A stretch of 31,272 bases of DNA from a virus: the IMG/VR virus record IMGVR_UViG_3300029893_000435, positions 1 through 31,272 of that record; one strand, written 5' to 3'. The notes below the pieces were generated by a model that was given only the letters and a program-made list of their open reading frames with translations, did not search any database and had not been told where the DNA came from. Both the position numbers and the translations under genes were made by a program. The stretch's first letter is position 1, and every line of letters starts with the position of its first letter. Shown here piece after piece: positions 941 to 24,184 of the stretch.

Positions 941-2668
941 ATGGCGTTTGTCGACAAACTCTTGACCATCCTCGCTCTGCTCGTGCTGGCCATCTTTGGC
1001 GGGCTGTTGCTGCTCAACCGCGACAGCGCCCAGCGCATGGGGCGCCACATCGAGCATTTCACCGCTGACGCACTGCAGTTGGCGATGTACTGTCTCATCG
1101 GAGCGACCGTGTTCGCCGGTCTGGCCGGATTGGTGCTGCTCTGGACGTGGATCAGCAAACGCCGCGTCGAGAATATGCGCCAGCGCGACGGCTCCTATCC
1201 CCTGCAGCGCGTGCACGTGGCCGGCGGCGTTATTCTGGTCGACCCCAACAAGCTCATCGGTCCGGCCATCGGGATCAGCGGCGCCGGCGTCGCCGAACTT
1301 TTCACCGCTGACCCCGACACCCATTTGCGCCATGCGGTCGAGCGTGCCAAAGTCAGCGCCATGCAGGCGCTGGCGCCCGGCGACGCCGCCATCAGCGACA
1401 AATATGGCTCCATGCACCGGCCCGGCGCCGTGTTGAATGCCGCCACCGGCAAGCATCTGGCCGGCGCTTACGAACGGCGCCAGCTTCCACCCTCGCGCAT
1501 CATCGGCGCTGACCCCAATCTCCAATCTCCAATCTCTCAATCTCCCCGCCTCACGCTCCGCCGGGTGCTCGAGCGCGCCACACCCACCGCGTTGCTCGCC
1601 GGCCAATCCGACGACGGCGCCCTGGCCACCTTCAATCCGAGAGACAGCATTCACGCCGGCGTCATCGGCGCCACCGGGACCGGAAAAACCACAAGCGTCG
1701 GTTACGGGTTGGTCGCACAAGCGCTGCGCACCGGCCATCATGTGATTGTTCTGGACCCAAAAGGCGGCGCCGACTGGCAGCCGTGGAGCAATCATCTCGA
1801 ATGGCATGCCAGTGACTATCAATGCTTTCCCGACCAGATCGACGCGCTGTGGGCCGAACACGAGCGCCGCACCGCATTGCTGCGCGAGGCCGGCGCCCGC
1901 TCCCTGGATGACCCGGTCATCGCCGGCGCCATCCCACACAGCCTGATCGTGATCGAAGAATACGGCGATCTCATCGCACAATTGCGCCGGAGCGCACGCA
2001 AGCGCGCCGACGCCGTCGACGATACGCTCGACCGCCTGATGCGCCTCAGCCGCGCCAGCGGGCTACACATGCTTTTGCTCGATCAGTATCCGCACGAATG
2101 GTCGCATCAAGTGCTCGCCGGCGCCAAGTGGCTGTGCATCTTCAAGCTGGGCCCCGGACAGGGCAACAAAGTGGGAGAATATTACGCCGAAAAGCTGCCC
2201 GACCATGGCCGCTTCATCGTGCGCGGCAAAGAGTACAACGCCTGGTTTGCCGCCCCTCACCTCGACAAGCTACTCGCCGTCACCCCACCCAGCCAAGCGC
2301 CGAGAATCATCGACGGGACCTGCACTATTCATCGTTCACGAACGGAGGCAGGGAAGGAGTCCACCTCTGGTGAACGCCCCATGAACGTTCACGCGAACGA
2401 TGCAACGAACGGCGCTGCGAACGCCATTGACGACAACCGCTGGCAGCCTCTCATCGACCGTTGGTTCGCTGAACATCCGCAGGCGTTGACCGGCCCTGCC
2501 GTCGGCATCAGCGACATCGCCCGGCGCATGGCCATCGCCGACACCGGCAGCGCCGACGCTTACGAACGCTATAAAGGTATCGCTCACAAGCTCTTTCACG
2601 AATTCCGCGCCAATGTCCGGCTACCTGGCGGCGCCAGGCTAGGCGCAGACATCACGCATCACGCATAA
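941..2668 (+). CDS. FtsK/SpoIIIE-like DNA translocase ATPase, membrane-anchored
   Basis: The product is 575 aa from the ATG at 941, which has GGAAGGA just upstream. An in-frame GTG at 875 lies upstream of the terminator and is rejected. Two hydrophobic segments (about 5-25 and 48-70) anchor the N-terminus. The motor domain has Walker A GATGTGKT (243-250), the FtsK-typical VLDPKGG motif (about 272-278) and Walker B LIVIEE (335-340). The C-terminal 80 residues look like a small helical or winged-helix domain. Family knowledge suggests ATP-driven movement of double-stranded DNA at a membrane. An in-frame CCAATCT repeat (1515-1544) encodes NLQSPISQSP just before the motor. FtsK-like motors are commoner on plasmids and conjugative elements than on phages. 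Confidence 0.85.
   Translation: MAFVDKLLTILALLVLAIFGGLLLLNRDSAQRMGRHIEHFTADALQLAMYCLIGATVFAGLAGLVLLWTWISKRRVENMRQRDGSYPLQRVHVAGGVILVDPNKLIGPAIGISGAGVAELFTADPDTHLRHAVERAKVSAMQALAPGDAAISDKYGSMHRPGAVLNAATGKHLAGAYERRQLPPSRIIGADPNLQSPISQSPRLTLRRVLERATPTALLAGQSDDGALATFNPRDSIHAGVIGATGTGKTTSVGYGLVAQALRTGHHVIVLDPKGGADWQPWSNHLEWHASDYQCFPDQIDALWAEHERRTALLREAGARSLDDPVIAGAIPHSLIVIEEYGDLIAQLRRSARKRADAVDDTLDRLMRLSRASGLHMLLLDQYPHEWSHQVLAGAKWLCIFKLGPGQGNKVGEYYAEKLPDHGRFIVRGKEYNAWFAAPHLDKLLAVTPPSQAPRIIDGTCTIHRSRTEAGKESTSGERPMNVHANDATNGAANAIDDNRWQPLIDRWFAEHPQALTGPAVGISDIARRMAIADTGSADAYERYKGIAHKLFHEFRANVRLPGGARLGADITHHA
1515..1544. repeat. Tandem heptamer repeat (CCAATCT)n inside the FtsK-like gene
   Basis: There are three exact CCAATCT units (1515-1535) followed by a degenerate fourth. 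Three heptamers equal 21 nt, so the coding frame is kept and the repeat encodes NLQSPI-type residues. The same unit recurs at 15172, 27334 and 30973. Confidence 0.85.
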
Positions 2669-10227: not shown

Positions 10228-10602
10228 TTATTTCGGCGTCGGGGGAATCATCGGCTGCGCTACTTCGACGCCATCGAACAATAGCCGCCTCCTGGTTTCC
10301 CCCAACGCCAACAGCTCCTGCAGCGCTTTACTGACGCCGCTGGCTAACCAGCGCACCAACCGCATATCCAGATCGTCGAACCGCTCCACCAGCGTAGCGC
10401 CATCCTCGATCAGCGTTCCATCCGGCAACAGCACATGCACCTGCGCCAGCTTCTGCGCCAGCAAATCAAACAACTCCGCTTCCGGCGCCGCACCGATCAC
10501 TGCCAGATTCCAGCGCTTCATCTCAGCGCGTGTCCACTGCTCGGCCAGTTCCACCCAGTTGTGGCGCAGCCCCTCGATTGTGCATTCCAGCCGGATTTGC
10601 AT
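10228..10602 (-). CDS. Tail assembly chaperone, G-like, 124 aa
   Basis: The ATG at 10602 overlaps the preceding tail tube stop as TGATG. The product is mostly helical (HNWVELAEQWTRAEMKRW, LFDLLAQKLAQVHVLL, LVRWLASGVSKALQEL) and ends near VAQPMIPPTPK. Its place between tail tube and tape measure and the overlapping -1 frame (9971-10219) match the conserved G/GT arrangement of siphoviruses. It is probably a chaperone that binds the tape measure and is not part of the virion. Confidence 0.72.
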   Translation of the reverse strand: MQIRLECTIEGLRHNWVELAEQWTRAEMKRWNLAVIGAAPEAELFDLLAQKLAQVHVLLPDGTLIEDGATLVERFDDLDMRLVRWLASGVSKALQELLALGETRRRLLFDGVEVAQPMIPPTPK

Positions 10603-11006
10603 CAGCTTGCCACCCTGGTTGGAATGCCGCTCAAGCGAAGCGTCGGCGAGCTGGCCACCTTCCCGGTTGCCGCTGCGCTGATGCCGTAGCCGGTGACAAA
10701 CGCTTCCGACGTCCATGTGTAGGTAACGGTGTCGCCGGATGCGTCCCTGAACGCAATTGCCGCCGTGACTTTGGCCGGGGCGATCATCAGCGGGCCAAGC
10801 ACATCGTCGACAACTTTGTCCCACCTTGTGACGCCGATGCTGACGTCGTAGCTGGGCAAGCCAGGAATGAACTCCTGCGCCGAACTGTCGAGATTGGTCG
10901 TCTCCAGTTCCGCCACCGTCATGTTCAGATCGACCTGCTCCACATACGCCGTCAGGTTTACTGCGTTCAACGTAAACGTACAATTCTTCGGACCCTTCAC
11001 ACCCAT
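10602..11006 (-). CDS. Tail tube protein (paralogue 1), 134 aa
   Basis: The ATG at 11006 has AGGAGAAGAAG upstream. The product is beta-rich, with LNAVNLTAYVEQVDLNMTVAELETTNLDSSAQEFIPGLPSYDVSI near the N-terminus. This is the pattern of a siphovirus major tail tube subunit, in which E-T-x-x-L-x-S-x-A-Q-E-F-x-P-G precedes the second sandwich strand. The C-terminal SEAFVTGYGISAAATGKVASSPTLRLSG also fits. It precedes the tail chaperones, the usual place of the major tail protein. A related copy lies just upstream. Confidence 0.8.
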   Translation of the reverse strand: MGVKGPKNCTFTLNAVNLTAYVEQVDLNMTVAELETTNLDSSAQEFIPGLPSYDVSIGVTRWDKVVDDVLGPLMIAPAKVTAAIAFRDASGDTVTYTWTSEAFVTGYGISAAATGKVASSPTLRLSGIPTRVAS

Positions 11007-11018
11007 AATCTTCTTCTC

Positions 11019-11726
11019 CTATACGTTCAAACTGACTACACCCATACAGCGGATCGCCGTGGCGCCGCCCAGATTGGCGCACGACAACCGCACATAGCGA
11101 TCCACCGTCCCCGACAGCGCCAGGCTGTAACTGCCTATCGCCGAGAAGATGAAACTTCCCTCATTCGCCCAAATTAGCGCATCGGCGCTCGACTCAACCC
11201 GAATCTCCGCATTTGTCGCCGCGCCTGTGATAGATGCCACGTGTAAAAATGCCTGGGCGCCGGTGGCAACCCCGGCGCCGAAGTCTATGGCGGCGCCGCT
11301 TTCCACAGCGTCAAAAATGCCGTCAAACACGCGCCGCCCACGCACGGCGCCCGCCGCGGCGCCCCACTGCCCGTTGAGCGTGACCAGCCCGGCCACCGGC
11401 GCCCCGAAGGCCATGCTGTAGTTGGTGGCGTCTGGCAGCACATAGGCGACACAATCGGCGTCGCTGTTCTGAGTCAATACGGTTATGATGGCCTGCCCCG
11501 CTGCGAAGCGGGCACTCAGTTCGGCCTCAAAGCCATCGGGCAGGACGCCCTCGAAATAGCCGTTCTGCGTGACCGTGCATTTGGGGAGCAGCGGGACAAA
11601 TTCCTGCGCTGCGCTGGCGAGGCTGGTGCGTTCTGCCTCGCCGATCTCGAAGGTCAATTCGACCTGGCTGGTCGAGGACGAAAAATCGAACTCGTCCACC
11701 CAGATGCGTACTTCGGTTCCTCTCAT
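11019..11726 (-). CDS. Tail tube-like protein with extra C-terminal domain (paralogue 2), 235 aa
   Basis: The first 75 residues align by eye with the tail tube protein next door (ELTFEIGEAERTSLASAAQEFVPLLPKCTVTQNGYFEG against ELETTNLDSSAQEFIPGLPSYDVSIGV). A longer C-terminal part has two beta-rich halves (FLHVASITGAATNAEIRVESSAD, YVRLSCANLGG) that look like a carbohydrate-binding or decoration sandwich. The start overlaps the previous stop by 4 nt. It could be a second tube subunit with surface decorations or a tail terminator-associated protein. Confidence 0.68.
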   Translation of the reverse strand: MRGTEVRIWVDEFDFSSSTSQVELTFEIGEAERTSLASAAQEFVPLLPKCTVTQNGYFEGVLPDGFEAELSARFAAGQAIITVLTQNSDADCVAYVLPDATNYSMAFGAPVAGLVTLNGQWGAAAGAVRGRRVFDGIFDAVESGAAIDFGAGVATGAQAFLHVASITGAATNAEIRVESSADALIWANEGSFIFSAIGSYSLALSGTVDRYVRLSCANLGGATAIRCMGVVSLNV

Positions 11727-12124
11727 AATGTCCCCGCCTCGTCGTCATAGTCAATCGTCAATGTAGCCACTGCACCGAAGGCTTCAATCTCCGGTGCATA
11801 CTCGTCGGCGCCGTCGCCGACGCTGATGAATCGGATCGATCCCGTTGCGCTGGGTTCGCTGTAGGCGTCGAGCGCCTGGCGCACCGCCTCGGCCAATATG
11901 CGCGCTTCGGTGTAATCGTCCGCCCAGCACGCAACCTGCACTATCACCGTGCGCCACCCGCCCCGGCCCGCCAGCGTGTAGTTCGGCGTGCTGTCGAGAC
12001 GGCGATAGACCAGAGCGGGCAAGCCTGTTTCCTGGCGCATTACTATCGGCGTTATCCGGCTGCCCACCGCGGCGGCAATGGTCGCATCGGCCAGCAGCAG
12101 CGATTTGATCCGTTGCTCGATCAT
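11723..12124 (-). CDS. Tail completion protein (DUF3168-like), 133 aa
   Basis: The ATG at 12124 overlaps the previous stop (ATGA). The N-terminus IEQRIKSLLLADATIAAAVGSRITPIVMRQETGLPALVYRRLDS and the later VIVQVACWADDYTEARILAEAVRQALDA are typical of DUF3168/gp17-type tail completion proteins that cap the tail tube where it meets the head. The order (gp10-like, this gene, tail tube) agrees with HK97-type genomes. Confidence 0.8.
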   Translation of the reverse strand: MIEQRIKSLLLADATIAAAVGSRITPIVMRQETGLPALVYRRLDSTPNYTLAGRGGWRTVIVQVACWADDYTEARILAEAVRQALDAYSEPSATGSIRFISVGDGADEYAPEIEAFGAVATLTIDYDDEAGTL

Positions 12125-12636
12125 TTCGCCCACGTCCCTTGAATCAACTGCACCAGGCGGCGCTTCACGTGCGCCTCAACTGCTTTCTTCATCTTGCGTT
12201 TTGCGCGCTGAAAGAATGGTCGTTTTTTCATGCGCCCTACGCCGCGCCGCTTGTGCTTGACGCCCCGACTAACGTCATGTGCTCTGGCGGTGCGGCCGCC
12301 TTCGATAAATCGGGTGTAAAAGACCGACGACACCACCAGCGCTTGCTTGGGCCGCGGCGAAAATTTCAGCGGCGAATTGAGGCTCTGCCCGTTGCGGCTG
12401 CGCACCAATGGCCGGTATTCGTTGCGGATGATGCTGGCGACATAGACGCCCGCTTTCAGTTGCCCGGTGTCCGTCGGCGCGTTGGCCCGCGCTTCGGCCT
12501 GAATCATCTGCGCCCCTTCGTGCAGCGCCCGTGCAATGGTCGGGCCTCTGAAGGAGATTTCGAGCGCCTTCAGTTTCTGAGAAACATTTTCGTCCACGCG
12601 CATCTGCAGGCGGTTGCGTCGTCGTCGTTGCGCCAT
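12121..12636 (-). CDS. HK97 gp10-like head-tail/tail completion protein, 171 aa
   Basis: The ATG at 12636 is preceded by GGGGAGGG and overlaps the CHAT gene stop as TAATG. The region GAQMIQAEARANAPTDTGQLKAGVYV is the hallmark of HK97 gp10-like minor proteins (helix, then APxDTGxL). A conserved FYTRFIEGG follows. The C-terminal third is very basic (KKRPFFQRAKRKMKKAVEAHVKRR). It probably acts at the head-tail interface. Translation is coupled to the unusual CHAT gene upstream. Confidence 0.85.
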   Translation of the reverse strand: MAQRRRRNRLQMRVDENVSQKLKALEISFRGPTIARALHEGAQMIQAEARANAPTDTGQLKAGVYVASIIRNEYRPLVRSRNGQSLNSPLKFSPRPKQALVVSSVFYTRFIEGGRTARAHDVSRGVKHKRRGVGRMKKRPFFQRAKRKMKKAVEAHVKRRLVQLIQGTWAK

Positions 12637-13469
12637 TATTGTCGCCCTCCCCACCACATATAGGCCCAGACAACGGCGCTGGCGGCATAGGCCAGGACGG
12701 CGAACGATAGCGCCGACTGCCAGCCGATTTCGAGCAGCTCGCGCAGCTGGGTGTAGAACAATGGCACCGGCAAGAAAAGGAGGATGAACGCTGCGACGAA
12801 CGCTGTGCGATGCCAGGGTGGGAGGCGCACGGCGGTCTGCACGTTGTCGTTGAGGTCGTTGATCTTCTGGCGCAATGCGCCGATCTCTCGATCCAGTCTG
12901 CGCTCCAGGCCGTCGATTTTGCTGCAAAGGCGGCTGCCCCATTCGTTGAGCATGAGGATGGTGTGGGTCTCGGTGGCTTCGCCGTGCCGGGCGTCGTGAA
13001 AGAGCAGGTAGTTGTGCGCCTGGCCGGGTTTGGCGTCGTTGAAGGCTTCGACGACGCTTTTGCCCTCGGCGAGCGCTTTGGCAAGGAGAGCGCCGGTCTG
13101 GAAGGCGCTGACGTCGTTGATGTCGGTCCGGGTGGTGATGACGCTGGCGCCGAGCTCGTAGTGCAGCTCAAGGCCGACGAGACGGCTGGAGCAGCTGTTG
13201 AGAACGATGAGCCAGGCGCCGCTGGCGCGCACAACGGCGGTGAGGTCGCTGATCGAGATGGGGCCGTCGCTGAGTTCAATGCCGATTTCGCTGCCGTGGG
13301 TGGCAAACCAAAGGATGTCCCAGTTGTGGCCCTGGAGGGCGTGCAGCAGATCGCGGCGCTTGACCTGGCCGATGAGCGACGCAGGACGCAGCGCACTGGA
13401 GACGGCGCGGATCTCGTCGGCGACGGCTGATAGGCCAAAATCTGGTGCAATGAGAAGGGTGTTTCGCAT
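12636..13469 (-). CDS. CHAT-family (caspase-like) protease with coiled coil and two TM helices
   Basis: The product is 277 aa. Residues about 1-160 match the CHAT caspase-like peptidase fold: LLIAPD at the start, ILWFATHGS with candidate catalytic His58, then LIVLNSCSS with candidate Cys93. The segment LGASVITTRTDINDVSAF and LAEGKSVVEAFNDA fits the end of the domain. Residues 183-214 form a coiled coil, and about 221-240 and 250-272 are two membrane helices, so the protease would face the cytoplasm on a C-terminal anchor. It lies between head closure and gp10-like genes in the same strand, 2 nt after one and overlapping the other. No such protein is standard for this position. Lysis, killing, exclusion or virion processing are all possible. 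Confidence 0.82.
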   Translation of the reverse strand: MRNTLLIAPDFGLSAVADEIRAVSSALRPASLIGQVKRRDLLHALQGHNWDILWFATHGSEIGIELSDGPISISDLTAVVRASGAWLIVLNSCSSRLVGLELHYELGASVITTRTDINDVSAFQTGALLAKALAEGKSVVEAFNDAKPGQAHNYLLFHDARHGEATETHTILMLNEWGSRLCSKIDGLERRLDREIGALRQKINDLNDNVQTAVRLPPWHRTAFVAAFILLFLPVPLFYTQLRELLEIGWQSALSFAVLAYAASAVVWAYMWWGGRQ

Positions 13470-13471
13470 GG

Positions 13472-13792
13472 CTAGGAATCGACCTCGGTGCACGCCAGGA
13501 TCGTGTATCCGGCGGTTGGAAAGTGGCTGATGGCGTCGATGTTGAGGGGTTTGCTGCGCCAGACCAGCCGATTTTTGTGCGTAACGGTTGCGCCGCTGCG
13601 GATGCGAATTTCGTAGCCGACGAGCATGACGGGGCGGTCGGCCAGAATCGGCTCACGCCCGGTGCGCGGGGTTACTTTTGCCCAGACGGTGGCGCTGTCC
13701 TGCCAGGTGATGGCTTCGGCGCCAAAGGCATCACGCGTCACCGTCGCCGTCTGAATCGTAATCCTCTCTTGCAGATCACCACTTGCGATCAT
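13472..13792 (-). CDS. Head closure / head-tail adaptor protein, 106 aa
   Basis: The ATG at 13792 directly follows the stop of the connector gene (1-nt gap) and is preferred over the longer frame. IASGDLQERITIQTATVTRDAFGAEAITWQDSATVWAKVTPRTGRE is the classic start of SPP1 gp16-like/HK97 head-tail adaptors, with the W-A-x-V-x-P-x-x-G-R-E motif; YEIRIRSGATVTHKNRLVWRSKPLNI continues it. It seals the head and connects the portal adaptor to the tail. Confidence 0.88.
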   Translation of the reverse strand: MIASGDLQERITIQTATVTRDAFGAEAITWQDSATVWAKVTPRTGREPILADRPVMLVGYEIRIRSGATVTHKNRLVWRSKPLNIDAISHFPTAGYTILACTEVDS

Positions 13793-13793
13793 C

Positions 13794-14378
13794 TCACCGC
13801 ACCCACCCACCGTACCAATGCACCGCATAGGGCGCCAGCAACGCCTCCACCGCAAACGGCAGCGGCCCTACATTTCCCGGCCCCGCCGCCTCTCGGTTGG
13901 CATACCAGTGCCCCACCAACAGCAAAATCGCCTGGCAGAGCGGGCGTGGGACATCCACCACATCGCCGTACCCCGCCACATAACGCACGCGTATCCCGGC
14001 CTGCCGCGCCAGCAACACCGCCGGCCGCTGCTCGCTATAGAACACCACATATCCCGGCGTCATCCCCGTGCGCAGCGCATACGCCGTCGCCGGCAACACC
14101 GTGCTGTTCCCATCGACATCCACCGCGGTCACACTCACTACACTCGCCGCCGGCGGATGCGGCAAATAGAGCAGCGCCGGCCACGCATCCAGCATCGCCT
14201 CCCACGTCTGAGTCAAAAGCGCCCGCCCGGTGGTCTCTTCGACATACATCCGCGCCGCCGTCACCAGCGCAGCGATGATGGCGTCCTCTACATCATGATC
14301 CACCCGGCAATGCAGCTTCGCCTCCGCCAAACTCACTGGCTCCGTCGCCGGCGGCGTGATCAATCGCAGGTCTATCAC
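13794..14378 (-). CDS. Head-tail connector (gp6-like), 194 aa
   Basis: The start is GTG at 14378 in a GTGA overlap with the preceding stop. PVSLAEAKLHCRVDHDVEDAIIAALVTAARMYVEETTGRAL is diagnostic of HK97 gp6/phage QLRG-like connectors. The middle (YLPHPPAASVVSVTAVDVDG) and RVRYVAGYGDVVDVPRPLCQAILLLVGHWYANREA complete the family pattern. It forms the ring under the portal. Confidence 0.9.
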   Translation of the reverse strand: MIDLRLITPPATEPVSLAEAKLHCRVDHDVEDAIIAALVTAARMYVEETTGRALLTQTWEAMLDAWPALLYLPHPPAASVVSVTAVDVDGNSTVLPATAYALRTGMTPGYVVFYSEQRPAVLLARQAGIRVRYVAGYGDVVDVPRPLCQAILLLVGHWYANREAAGPGNVGPLPFAVEALLAPYAVHWYGGWVR

Positions 14379-16541: not shown

Positions 16542-17195
16542 CTACTCCAAACTCATCAACCGCAGCCGCCGCGTCCGCCGCTCGCGCTCCAGCGCAAGCG
16601 CAAGCGCATCACCGGCCTGGCCGTCGCGTTGCAACGCCCGCTGCAACTCGGCCGGAGGCTCCGGCACATATCCGAAAACAGGATCCATCGTTCCCGTATT
16701 TCGCACCCCAATCGACGTGTCCAGGTAAGCCGGATACGTCACCGGCGACACGTCATAGAGCCTGGCGCGCAAGATCGTGCGCACCCACTGCTCGTTCGCG
16801 TCCACGTCCCAGCGGTCATCCGTAGCGACGAACGCAAAGCTCATCTGCGACACGTCCCCGCGCTCGATCGCCGCCACAAAGCCCCGATTCACCGGCGTAT
16901 CGAGCGGGTCGATCTCGCTCAGTAGCCCGTAATCGTCTTCAAACAGACGCAGCGATCCATTCATCGAGCGCCCCAGAATCCAATTCGAGTCGTGGTTCCA
17001 CAGAGCGCGCACATCGTCGCCCGCCGCCAGCGAATCGGCGAACGCCCCCGGCGCCACCACCTCATAGAAGCCCCACAGCTCCACACTGCGCCGATTGAAC
17101 ACCGCCGCATAGCCGCGCAGCATCGGCATATCGCCTTCGCCACGGCGCTCCACGCGCAAGTCTGGCGCCACATAGCGCCGTTCAATCTTCAACAT
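16542..17195 (-). CDS. Prohead protease, HK97 S78 type, 217 aa
   Basis: The ATG at 17195 has GGGGGAGG 6 nt upstream and overlaps the portal end by 14 nt. Family motifs include RGYAAVFNRRSVELWGFYEVVAPGAF, VRALWNHDSNWILGRSMNGSLRL with candidate catalytic His68, and GDVSQMSFAF with candidate nucleophile Ser119. LYDVSPVTYPAYLDTSI follows. The C-terminus is a charged helix. It would trim the capsid delta domain during prohead maturation. The order portal, protease, capsid is standard. Confidence 0.93.
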   Translation of the reverse strand: MLKIERRYVAPDLRVERRGEGDMPMLRGYAAVFNRRSVELWGFYEVVAPGAFADSLAAGDDVRALWNHDSNWILGRSMNGSLRLFEDDYGLLSEIDPLDTPVNRGFVAAIERGDVSQMSFAFVATDDRWDVDANEQWVRTILRARLYDVSPVTYPAYLDTSIGVRNTGTMDPVFGYVPEPPAELQRALQRDGQAGDALALALERERRTRRLRLMSLE

Positions 17196-22961: not shown

Positions 22962-23822
22962 CTATCGCAGGAGACTGGTGCGAATCCATCCTTCGCAGTT
23001 TCCGTTGCGCACACGCGCCATGCCATAGTTGACGCTGGACCGGTCGAGGATTTTCACCGGATCACCCCAGTTCAATGTGCAAACACGTCGTGTCAAATTG
23101 GCGTCTGACCAGATGTTGGCTTCCATGCCGATTTCAGCACAATCAGGGCAATGCAGCCACATCGTGTTGGACAACGCCGGCGTCGACGCTCTGGGCGCTT
23201 GCGCTGACTCCATGCTGCCACAACCACGCAGGAAGAGAAATGCGATCCCGGCGAGCAGCAACAGCCACACCCACCACGGCCAGCCAGACGACTTCCGCTT
23301 TGGCTCTGGTTGCGATTCTTTCGGCCAGACCAGCGGCGTCTCAGCATTCAACAATCTGGAGGGAGATCGCAGCTTCGCTTCATCTTCGCCAATCCAGCCT
23401 GTAGTGACGCCGGCGCCATGTTTGGTCGGCTTGATCGTTGGCGGCGCCGGACTGAGATCAGGCGCCGGCGCGCTGTCCGGTATGTCGAAGTCAAGATAAA
23501 CGCCATAACGCGTCCCTGGTCTGCCGCCACCGATGGCCGCGGACACCGCGACACGCTGGCCAGGATAGACCCCGATCTGCCGCAACTGTTGCCGCAGGAT
23601 CGGCGCCTCCTCACGGGAAATATAGCCCACAGTCATATTGTCGATCTCGACGCGGATGGCATTGGGGTCATGGGGATTGTCGGGCTGAAGATAAAGTTTG
23701 GCGTCACAACGCATTCGCCGGCCACCGTCCGTGTAGGGACCGGCGATCTTGATGAGGGCGTCTTGATAGTGCTGCTCGCCAACAATGTCCTGGTCAAATC
23801 GTCCGCTGCCTGGAAGTCGCAT
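22962..23822 (-). CDS. HIRAN domain + TM + SH3-like protein, 286 aa
   Basis: The ATG at 23822 has GGAGG 5-6 nt upstream; the longer frame to 23903 has none. Residues about 12-90 match a HIRAN domain (DIVGEQHYQDALIKIAG, AKLYLQPDNPHDPNAIRVEIDNMTVGYISREEA), known in DNA repair enzymes for binding DNA ends but also found alone. A Pro-rich linker, one TM helix (SGWPWWVWLLLLAGIAFLFL, about 199-218) and a C-terminal SH3b-like domain with four Cys (ending NCEGWIRTSLLR) follow. It has its own terminator and no visible partner. It may be a moron acting in lysogeny or in exclusion at the envelope. Confidence 0.8.
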   Translation of the reverse strand: MRLPGSGRFDQDIVGEQHYQDALIKIAGPYTDGGRRMRCDAKLYLQPDNPHDPNAIRVEIDNMTVGYISREEAPILRQQLRQIGVYPGQRVAVSAAIGGGRPGTRYGVYLDFDIPDSAPAPDLSPAPPTIKPTKHGAGVTTGWIGEDEAKLRSPSRLLNAETPLVWPKESQPEPKRKSSGWPWWVWLLLLAGIAFLFLRGCGSMESAQAPRASTPALSNTMWLHCPDCAEIGMEANIWSDANLTRRVCTLNWGDPVKILDRSSVNYGMARVRNGNCEGWIRTSLLR

Positions 23823-24184
23823 GAATACCTCCGCTGAAACGAATAGGCGCCAAGTGCGCAAATCTCCTGTAGCCATTGAACACCACGAAAACAGCTCCAA
23901 CATGCGACGATCTTCAGATTTCTTCTACATCATTTGCATCTGACGCCGCGAAGGATTCGTAAGCTATCCAGCGATTATCCAATTAGCGCTGACAGGTTCT
24001 TTCCTCTACGACGTTCCTCAGATTTTCCTCTGCGACATTCCAACCGGGTGACATGGCGGAATGTCGCACCCATCTTGAGACGCGCAGGAGAGAACGCCAT
24101 CGATTCATCATGCCGGTTATGATCTGCCGTAATGCGAAATTTGTGTTGGGGTCAGTTTGCCTGCAATTTTGGGGTGATCTGGGG
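23823..24184. promoter_or_regulatory. Divergent control region with repeated operator-like half-sites
   Basis: There is no supported gene between the divergent HIRAN and HTH genes. TCCTCTACGACGTTCC (24002-24017) and TCCTCTGCGACATTCC (24026-24041) are direct repeats 24 bp apart, 14 of 16 identical. TGCGACATTCC (24031-24041) is also repeated in inverted form as GGAATGTCGCA (24058-24068), a perfect 11-bp dyad with a 16-bp spacer. This is a plausible operator cluster for a lysogeny switch, but its regulator is not identified. Confidence 0.55.

Follow-up and report, generated by a model that had tools for sequence, protein, structure and literature searches.

Why would a tailed phage encode a putative membrane-anchored CHAT (caspase-like) protease among the genes that connect its head to its tail, and what might such a protein do there? 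CHAT and other caspase-like proteases are effectors of bacterial immunity and cell death. The gene considered here lies on the minus strand (12636..13469) of the IMG/VR record IMGVR_UViG_3300029893_000435, a stretch of 31,272 nucleotides (positions 1 to 31,272 of the record) that is referred to below as the window. Direct terminal repeats of 99 bp argue against the window being a stray host segment, and its gene set (TerL, portal, prohead protease, major head protein, connectors and tail genes) identifies it as a phage genome. It includes an integrase, indicating a temperate phage. The terminal repeats and the existence of syntenic viral relatives rule out a host fragment or a misassembly.

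Other genes of the window are recorded here as side observations. Positions 941-2668 (+) encode a membrane-anchored FtsK/HerA-like ATPase that is also encoded by G002, G003 and G006, three of the sequences in our comparison. Positions 22962-23903 (-) encode a protein with a HIRAN domain, then a hydrophobic stretch and an SH3-like C-terminus (SH3 assigned by eye), which has relatives in Nostoc phage Nsp-JY10. Searches with the FtsK-like and HIRAN proteins against phages and plasmids gave no clue to the host, and TerL gave distant matches only. Two adjoining major-tail-like proteins (10602-11726 (-)) are similar to one another (cross hits), and the pair is conserved in relatives; the larger of the two had no match in the phage collection.

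A CHAT gene packed between head-tail connector genes

The CHAT gene encodes a protein of 277 aa and has homologues on nine other contigs. Upstream of it lie a head-tail adaptor gene (13794..14378 (-); PHROG 442, E = 1.2e-31) and a head-closure (Hc1) gene (13472..13792 (-); PHROG 25, E = 8.6e-16 for the longer reading 13472-13855), with 2 nt between the head-closure stop (13472) and the CHAT ATG. At the other end, the gp10-like/Neck1 gene (12121..12636 (-); PHROG 5, E = 3.2e-11) starts inside the CHAT stop codon, the two genes sharing one base in a TAATG junction, and a tail terminator gene lies further downstream (11723..12133 (-); PHROG 347, E = 2.4e-12). A separate prohead serine protease is encoded at 16542..17195 (-) (Pfam Peptidase_S78, E = 1.2e-42). 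No promoter-like site was identified within or just before the CHAT gene, in a search restricted to the sigma-70 consensus.

Overlapping antisense or +1-frame genes within CHAT were considered and rejected, as they are not conserved in the homologues. The +1 frame is stop-free in the window across the whole CHAT gene (12275-13450 (-); P = 0.0006 for zero stops by synonymous-codon permutation). The homologues have 9-18 stops in that frame, which gives no indication of a conserved overlapping gene.

The product has a predicted caspase-like fold and an invariant His/Cys dyad

The window protein matches the Pfam CHAT profile (PF12770) with 26.8 bits against a curated cut-off of 24 (E = 4.2e-6), as do all members of the family that were tested (8/8; best E = 1.9e-9), and no second Pfam domain was found in its 277 aa. 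AlphaFold2 modelling on eight sequences yielded an alternating strand-helix core, a long helix and two transmembrane (TM) helices (pLDDT 77), while the catalytic domain alone was predicted with a complete caspase-like core (pLDDT 85, pTM 0.84). Model confidence is lower in the coiled-coil part and in the loop at residues 161-171. The top Foldseek match in the PDB was SAVED-CHAT 8tl0 (E = 2.6e-10, TMq 0.81); weaker matches to caspase-6, CED-3, caspase-8 and separase were interspersed with unrelated Rossmann-like folds.

The caspase-like catalytic domain comprises residues 1-159 (12993..13469 (-)). The predicted catalytic residues within it, His58 (codon 13296..13298 (-), in the motif WFATHG) and Cys93 (codon 13191..13193 (-), in LNSCSS), align to the GHG and NAC motifs of 8tl0 and are invariant in every homologue aligned. 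It is likely that the gene product is a CHAT cysteine protease with an intact dyad and that it is catalytically competent; proteolytic activity is inferred here and has not been shown. The domain lacks a signal peptide and is followed by a long helix with coiled-coil heptads (residues 165-214, 12828..12977 (-); 88% hydrophobic a/d positions over 186-213) and by two TM helices that are conserved among the homologues, at residues 222-240 (12750..12806 (-); hydropathy 2.04) and 253-271 (12657..12713 (-); hydropathy 1.71). The coiled coil probably oligomerises the protein, the two C-terminal helices probably anchor it, and the protease domain most likely faces the cytoplasm. These are inferences, and no membrane topology has been shown.

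A preliminary description of the locus, made from the sequence alone, had proposed the His58/Cys93 pair in a CHAT-like layout, a coiled coil with two C-terminal TM helices, a 2-nt gap after the head-closure gene and a TAATG overlap with the gp10-like gene. All of these claims held, the first on the strength of profile, fold and alignment to 8tl0, the second with the helices placed as above and the heptads at approximately residues 165-214. It had asked for a Pfam CHAT search, which gave the match above the curated cut-off, and had stated that it would be refuted by a fold that is not caspase-like, by homologues without the dyad or by evidence of a misassembled host segment. None of these was found: the fold is caspase-like by AlphaFold2 and Foldseek, every homologue retains His and Cys, and the window has terminal repeats and syntenic viral relatives.

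Homologues occupy the connector block of phages with different heads

An exact-peptide scan of 2.9 million viral contigs identified eight further contigs that encode a CHAT homologue, and a scan of GTDB species genomes yielded a single match, on a contig of a metagenome-assembled genome (MAG) labelled Azonexus. This brings the number of contigs with the gene to ten, the window included, with pairwise identities of 61-85%. The gene is absent from 150 other genomes of the family of the Azonexus-labelled MAG. No match was detected by tblastn (E up to 1) across 50,697 phage records, nor in the plasmids searched, and PHROGs gave no meaningful match (best E = 0.56). Distant relatives may escape exact-peptide and tblastn scans. 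Remote fold matches were found to the viral proteins A0A1P8DJ94 (E = 1.6e-11) and A0A8S5MXG5 (Myoviridae sp. ctWaE18; E = 6.1e-7), whose predicted CHAT-like folds suggest further uncharacterised viral relatives, at merely 18% and 13% identity to the phage CHAT protein. No phage CHAT protease of such a build is reported in the open-licence literature that we searched.

On every contig examined the gene lies in the head-tail connector region, with an adaptor, closure or MuF-like gene as its 5' neighbour and a closure or Neck1 gene as its 3' neighbour. The start of CHAT abuts the upstream gene or overlaps it by 1-4 nt on most contigs (a 2-nt gap or an overlap of 1-4 nt with the upstream virion gene in the window, G003, G004, L013, L024 and L002). 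The co-orientation and translational coupling of CHAT with virion genes suggest that it is probably made late, although the timing of expression is inferred. At least four different head types are represented among these contigs. The head module of the window has an S78 protease and a PF04860 portal, with homologues in G002; that of G003 has a phrog_104 portal, a MuF-like protein and another head protein, with homologues in G005; L013 has a Phage_capsid_4/P22-type coat; and G004 has an S77-protease-containing protein.

CHAT is exchanged as a single gene

In an all-against-all comparison CHAT was common to all contigs (8/8), and it was the sole gene shared by the window with G004 (68% identity) and with the short contig L024 (64%). 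DNA similarity is confined to the CHAT gene in the pairs L002/L024, G004/G005 and G004/G003. This pattern, in which only CHAT is shared and similarity ends at the gene, indicates single-gene exchange. The gene is under strong purifying selection, with dN/dS ranging from 0.10 (G003/L003) to 0.31 in pairs with unsaturated dS.

The window copy is also compositionally foreign. Its coding-strand GC skew is -0.157, against positive values in 20/20 of the other minus-strand window genes tested, and in codon usage it deviates more than any other minus-strand gene tested (z = 13.6, the next being 9.3), with a strong departure from the other late genes. At third positions its GC skew is -0.45, while the homologues have values of +0.13 to +0.59 and resemble most of their neighbours. 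The inverted skew and foreign codon usage suggest that the window phage probably gained CHAT recently, from a different compositional setting.

Further claims of the preliminary description can be assessed here. Its base counts (27 G and 12 C at 13081-13140, 25 C and 14 G at 14101-14160) are exact, and the skew and codon tests over a wider gene set are stronger than that sample. The separate origin that it proposed for CHAT is supported by composition, by the skew of the homologues and by the gene-confined DNA similarity. For its claim that CHAT is made with virion proteins, late coupling is supported by the junctions and the time of expression is not shown. The search of viral databases that it suggested placed the gene in the same connector block on all contigs with CHAT.

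The connector region behaves as a cargo slot

The region behaves as a cargo slot, in which CHAT forms a one-gene cassette that can be exchanged among several tailed phages that otherwise differ. G006, a close relative with an FtsK-like gene 89% identical to that of G002 and a TerL 79% identical to that of the window, has no CHAT match. Past its closure gene it instead encodes a coiled-coil-TM protein and then a multi-TM protein, an order that recurs on a second contig, L050. No CHAT match was found in L017, which has a related tail module; genes nearby are glycosyltransferase-like (family match below threshold). As further observations on G006, its head operon is inverted relative to TerL and Neck1 (L047:6000-13200), the junction at its TerL side is the same in L050, and it has a 300-nt direct repeat.

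A family of small two-TM holin-like proteins (L032:11804-12034, L036:10414-10635, L035:12540-12776 and L031:12498-12719) occurs among the viral contigs only alongside CHAT, and directly after it in G003. An obligatory partnership with CHAT was rejected, as the window lacks this protein.

Comparison with known systems

The closest solved relative by profile (E = 0.0013) and by fold is the SAVED-CHAT protein of type III CRISPR (PDB 8tl0), with which the His and Cys motifs align. The phage protein lacks its SAVED sensor, having instead a coiled coil, two TM helices and a place in a phage late operon. Csx29, the TPR-CHAT protein of the type III-E CRISPR Craspase, matches in its CHAT fold (8eey, E = 3.6e-4) and has the His/Cys dyad in common; its cleavage activity requires the dyad H615/C658 (PMC10028731). 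Phage CHAT differs in being membrane-anchored, by prediction, and in having neither a TPR domain nor a Cas7-11 partner. The features of CRISPR-associated SAVED-CHAT and TPR-CHAT are absent: Pfam finds no SAVED or TPR domain, and the neighbours are phage structural genes.

The two-gene EACC1 conflict system includes caspase-superfamily peptidases with an N-terminal caspase-like domain, as in phage CHAT, of which at least 33% have TM helices (Kaur et al. 2020, PMC7159879). That system is cellular and has a 5' EACC1 gene, whereas the 5' neighbour of phage CHAT is a connector gene: no EACC1 gene with one TM helix was found there, the position being taken by an adaptor, closure or MuF-like phage gene. 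Neither was a gasdermin gene, which would be expected beside a gasdermin-activating protease, found adjacent to CHAT, which is flanked by connector genes on every contig. Prohead maturation proteases are not matched either, since CHAT belongs to a different family and prohead maturation falls to the separate S78 protease. Morons and exclusion proteins of phages, of which HK97 gp15 is an example (PMC10883804), are likewise small membrane-associated accessory genes that are swapped between phages, and CHAT shares with morons a foreign composition and a patchy presence at one site. A moron's own promoter and terminator are missing, as there is no promoter-like site (sigma-70 consensus only) and the junctions are of 2 nt or overlapping. 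To our knowledge, no protease domain has been reported for morons or exclusion proteins such as HK97 gp15.

Possible functions

We propose that CHAT is an exchangeable, late-expressed and catalytically competent membrane protease directed against a host protein or competing phages. We judge this reading as likely to be right as wrong, and its activity, target, timing and topology are inferred. The predicted anchor, the conserved dyad, the absence of a signal peptide, the probable late expression and the occurrence with differing head and tail types all point away from virion processing and towards a target on the cytoplasmic side of the membrane that belongs to the host or a competitor. CHAT remains 61-85% identical while the connectors diverge or are replaced, which implies, by inference, that all these phages share its target; a host protein is the simplest candidate. 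More specifically, the substrate of CHAT would be a conserved host protein, located at the membrane or close to it, whose cleavage would aid host takeover, cell killing or lysis; we infer this step tentatively and rate it slightly below the general proposal. The choice of a host target over phage exclusion rests on inference, and a shared connector substrate is still possible because CHAT is always in the connector block. Pfam recognised no peptidoglycan hydrolase in the window proteins scanned or in 39 proteins of G003 (L032-L034), so a role in lysis is possible but unproven. Among the functions put forward in the preliminary description, virion processing is disfavoured, and lysis, host killing and exclusion remain possibilities without functional data.

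The main rival, which remains possible, is superinfection exclusion or phage competition, in which CHAT would cleave an ejection protein or an essential factor upon entry of a second phage and so protect the resident phage or lysogen. In its favour, CHAT is a predicted membrane protein that is swapped between phages and occupies a variable slot like that of a moron, the integrase points to a temperate phage, and there are precedents for phage proteins that prevent DNA injection, e.g. HK97 gp15 (PMC10883804). Against it, CHAT has no nearby promoter-like site of its own and is tightly coupled to late genes, whereas expression from the prophage is the usual pattern for exclusion genes.

An unlikely alternative is a virion maturation protease that processes connector or tail proteins during assembly. 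The constant location of CHAT in the connector block and its coupling to virion genes speak for this reading. Against it stand the two TM helices, the presence of separate prohead proteases of both the S78 and the S77 type, the co-occurrence of the same CHAT with unrelated heads and with unrelated tails, and the absence of a CHAT match in G006 and L017, whose connector or tail genes are related. A role in head maturation is rejected given the separate prohead proteases. Finally, CHAT could be a host defence gene picked up accidentally, or a neutral passenger, that brings the phage no advantage. This reading would fit the role of CHAT and other caspase-like proteins as host conflict effectors (PMC7159879, PMC10028731) and the foreign composition of the window copy, but is very unlikely and largely refuted by conservation, with ten contigs carrying CHAT in the same block under strong purifying selection and repeated exchange, and 150 other genomes of the MAG's family lacking it.

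The preferred reading of a late protease directed against host or competitor also has a bolder form, which is no more than a possibility: CHAT may represent a novel class of late effectors in phages, in which an executioner-type protease is tethered to the membrane and passes as a one-gene cassette among unrelated phages of a single host group. This protease might cut a host membrane or cell-death protein, causing killing or lysis (perhaps replacing a classical lysin), or might disarm immunity.

The CHAT domain itself is already known; what is unusual is to find such a protease, exchangeable and by prediction anchored in the membrane, within the late operon of a phage, with a function that has not been shown. 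The head-tail connector junction is a cargo slot worth mining, and the small size of the protein (277 aa, one Cys mutant) makes phage proteolysis to kill, lyse or guard the host directly testable. That CHAT is encoded with virion genes, tied by prediction to the membrane and swapped singly implies that phages themselves may deploy an executioner-type protease.
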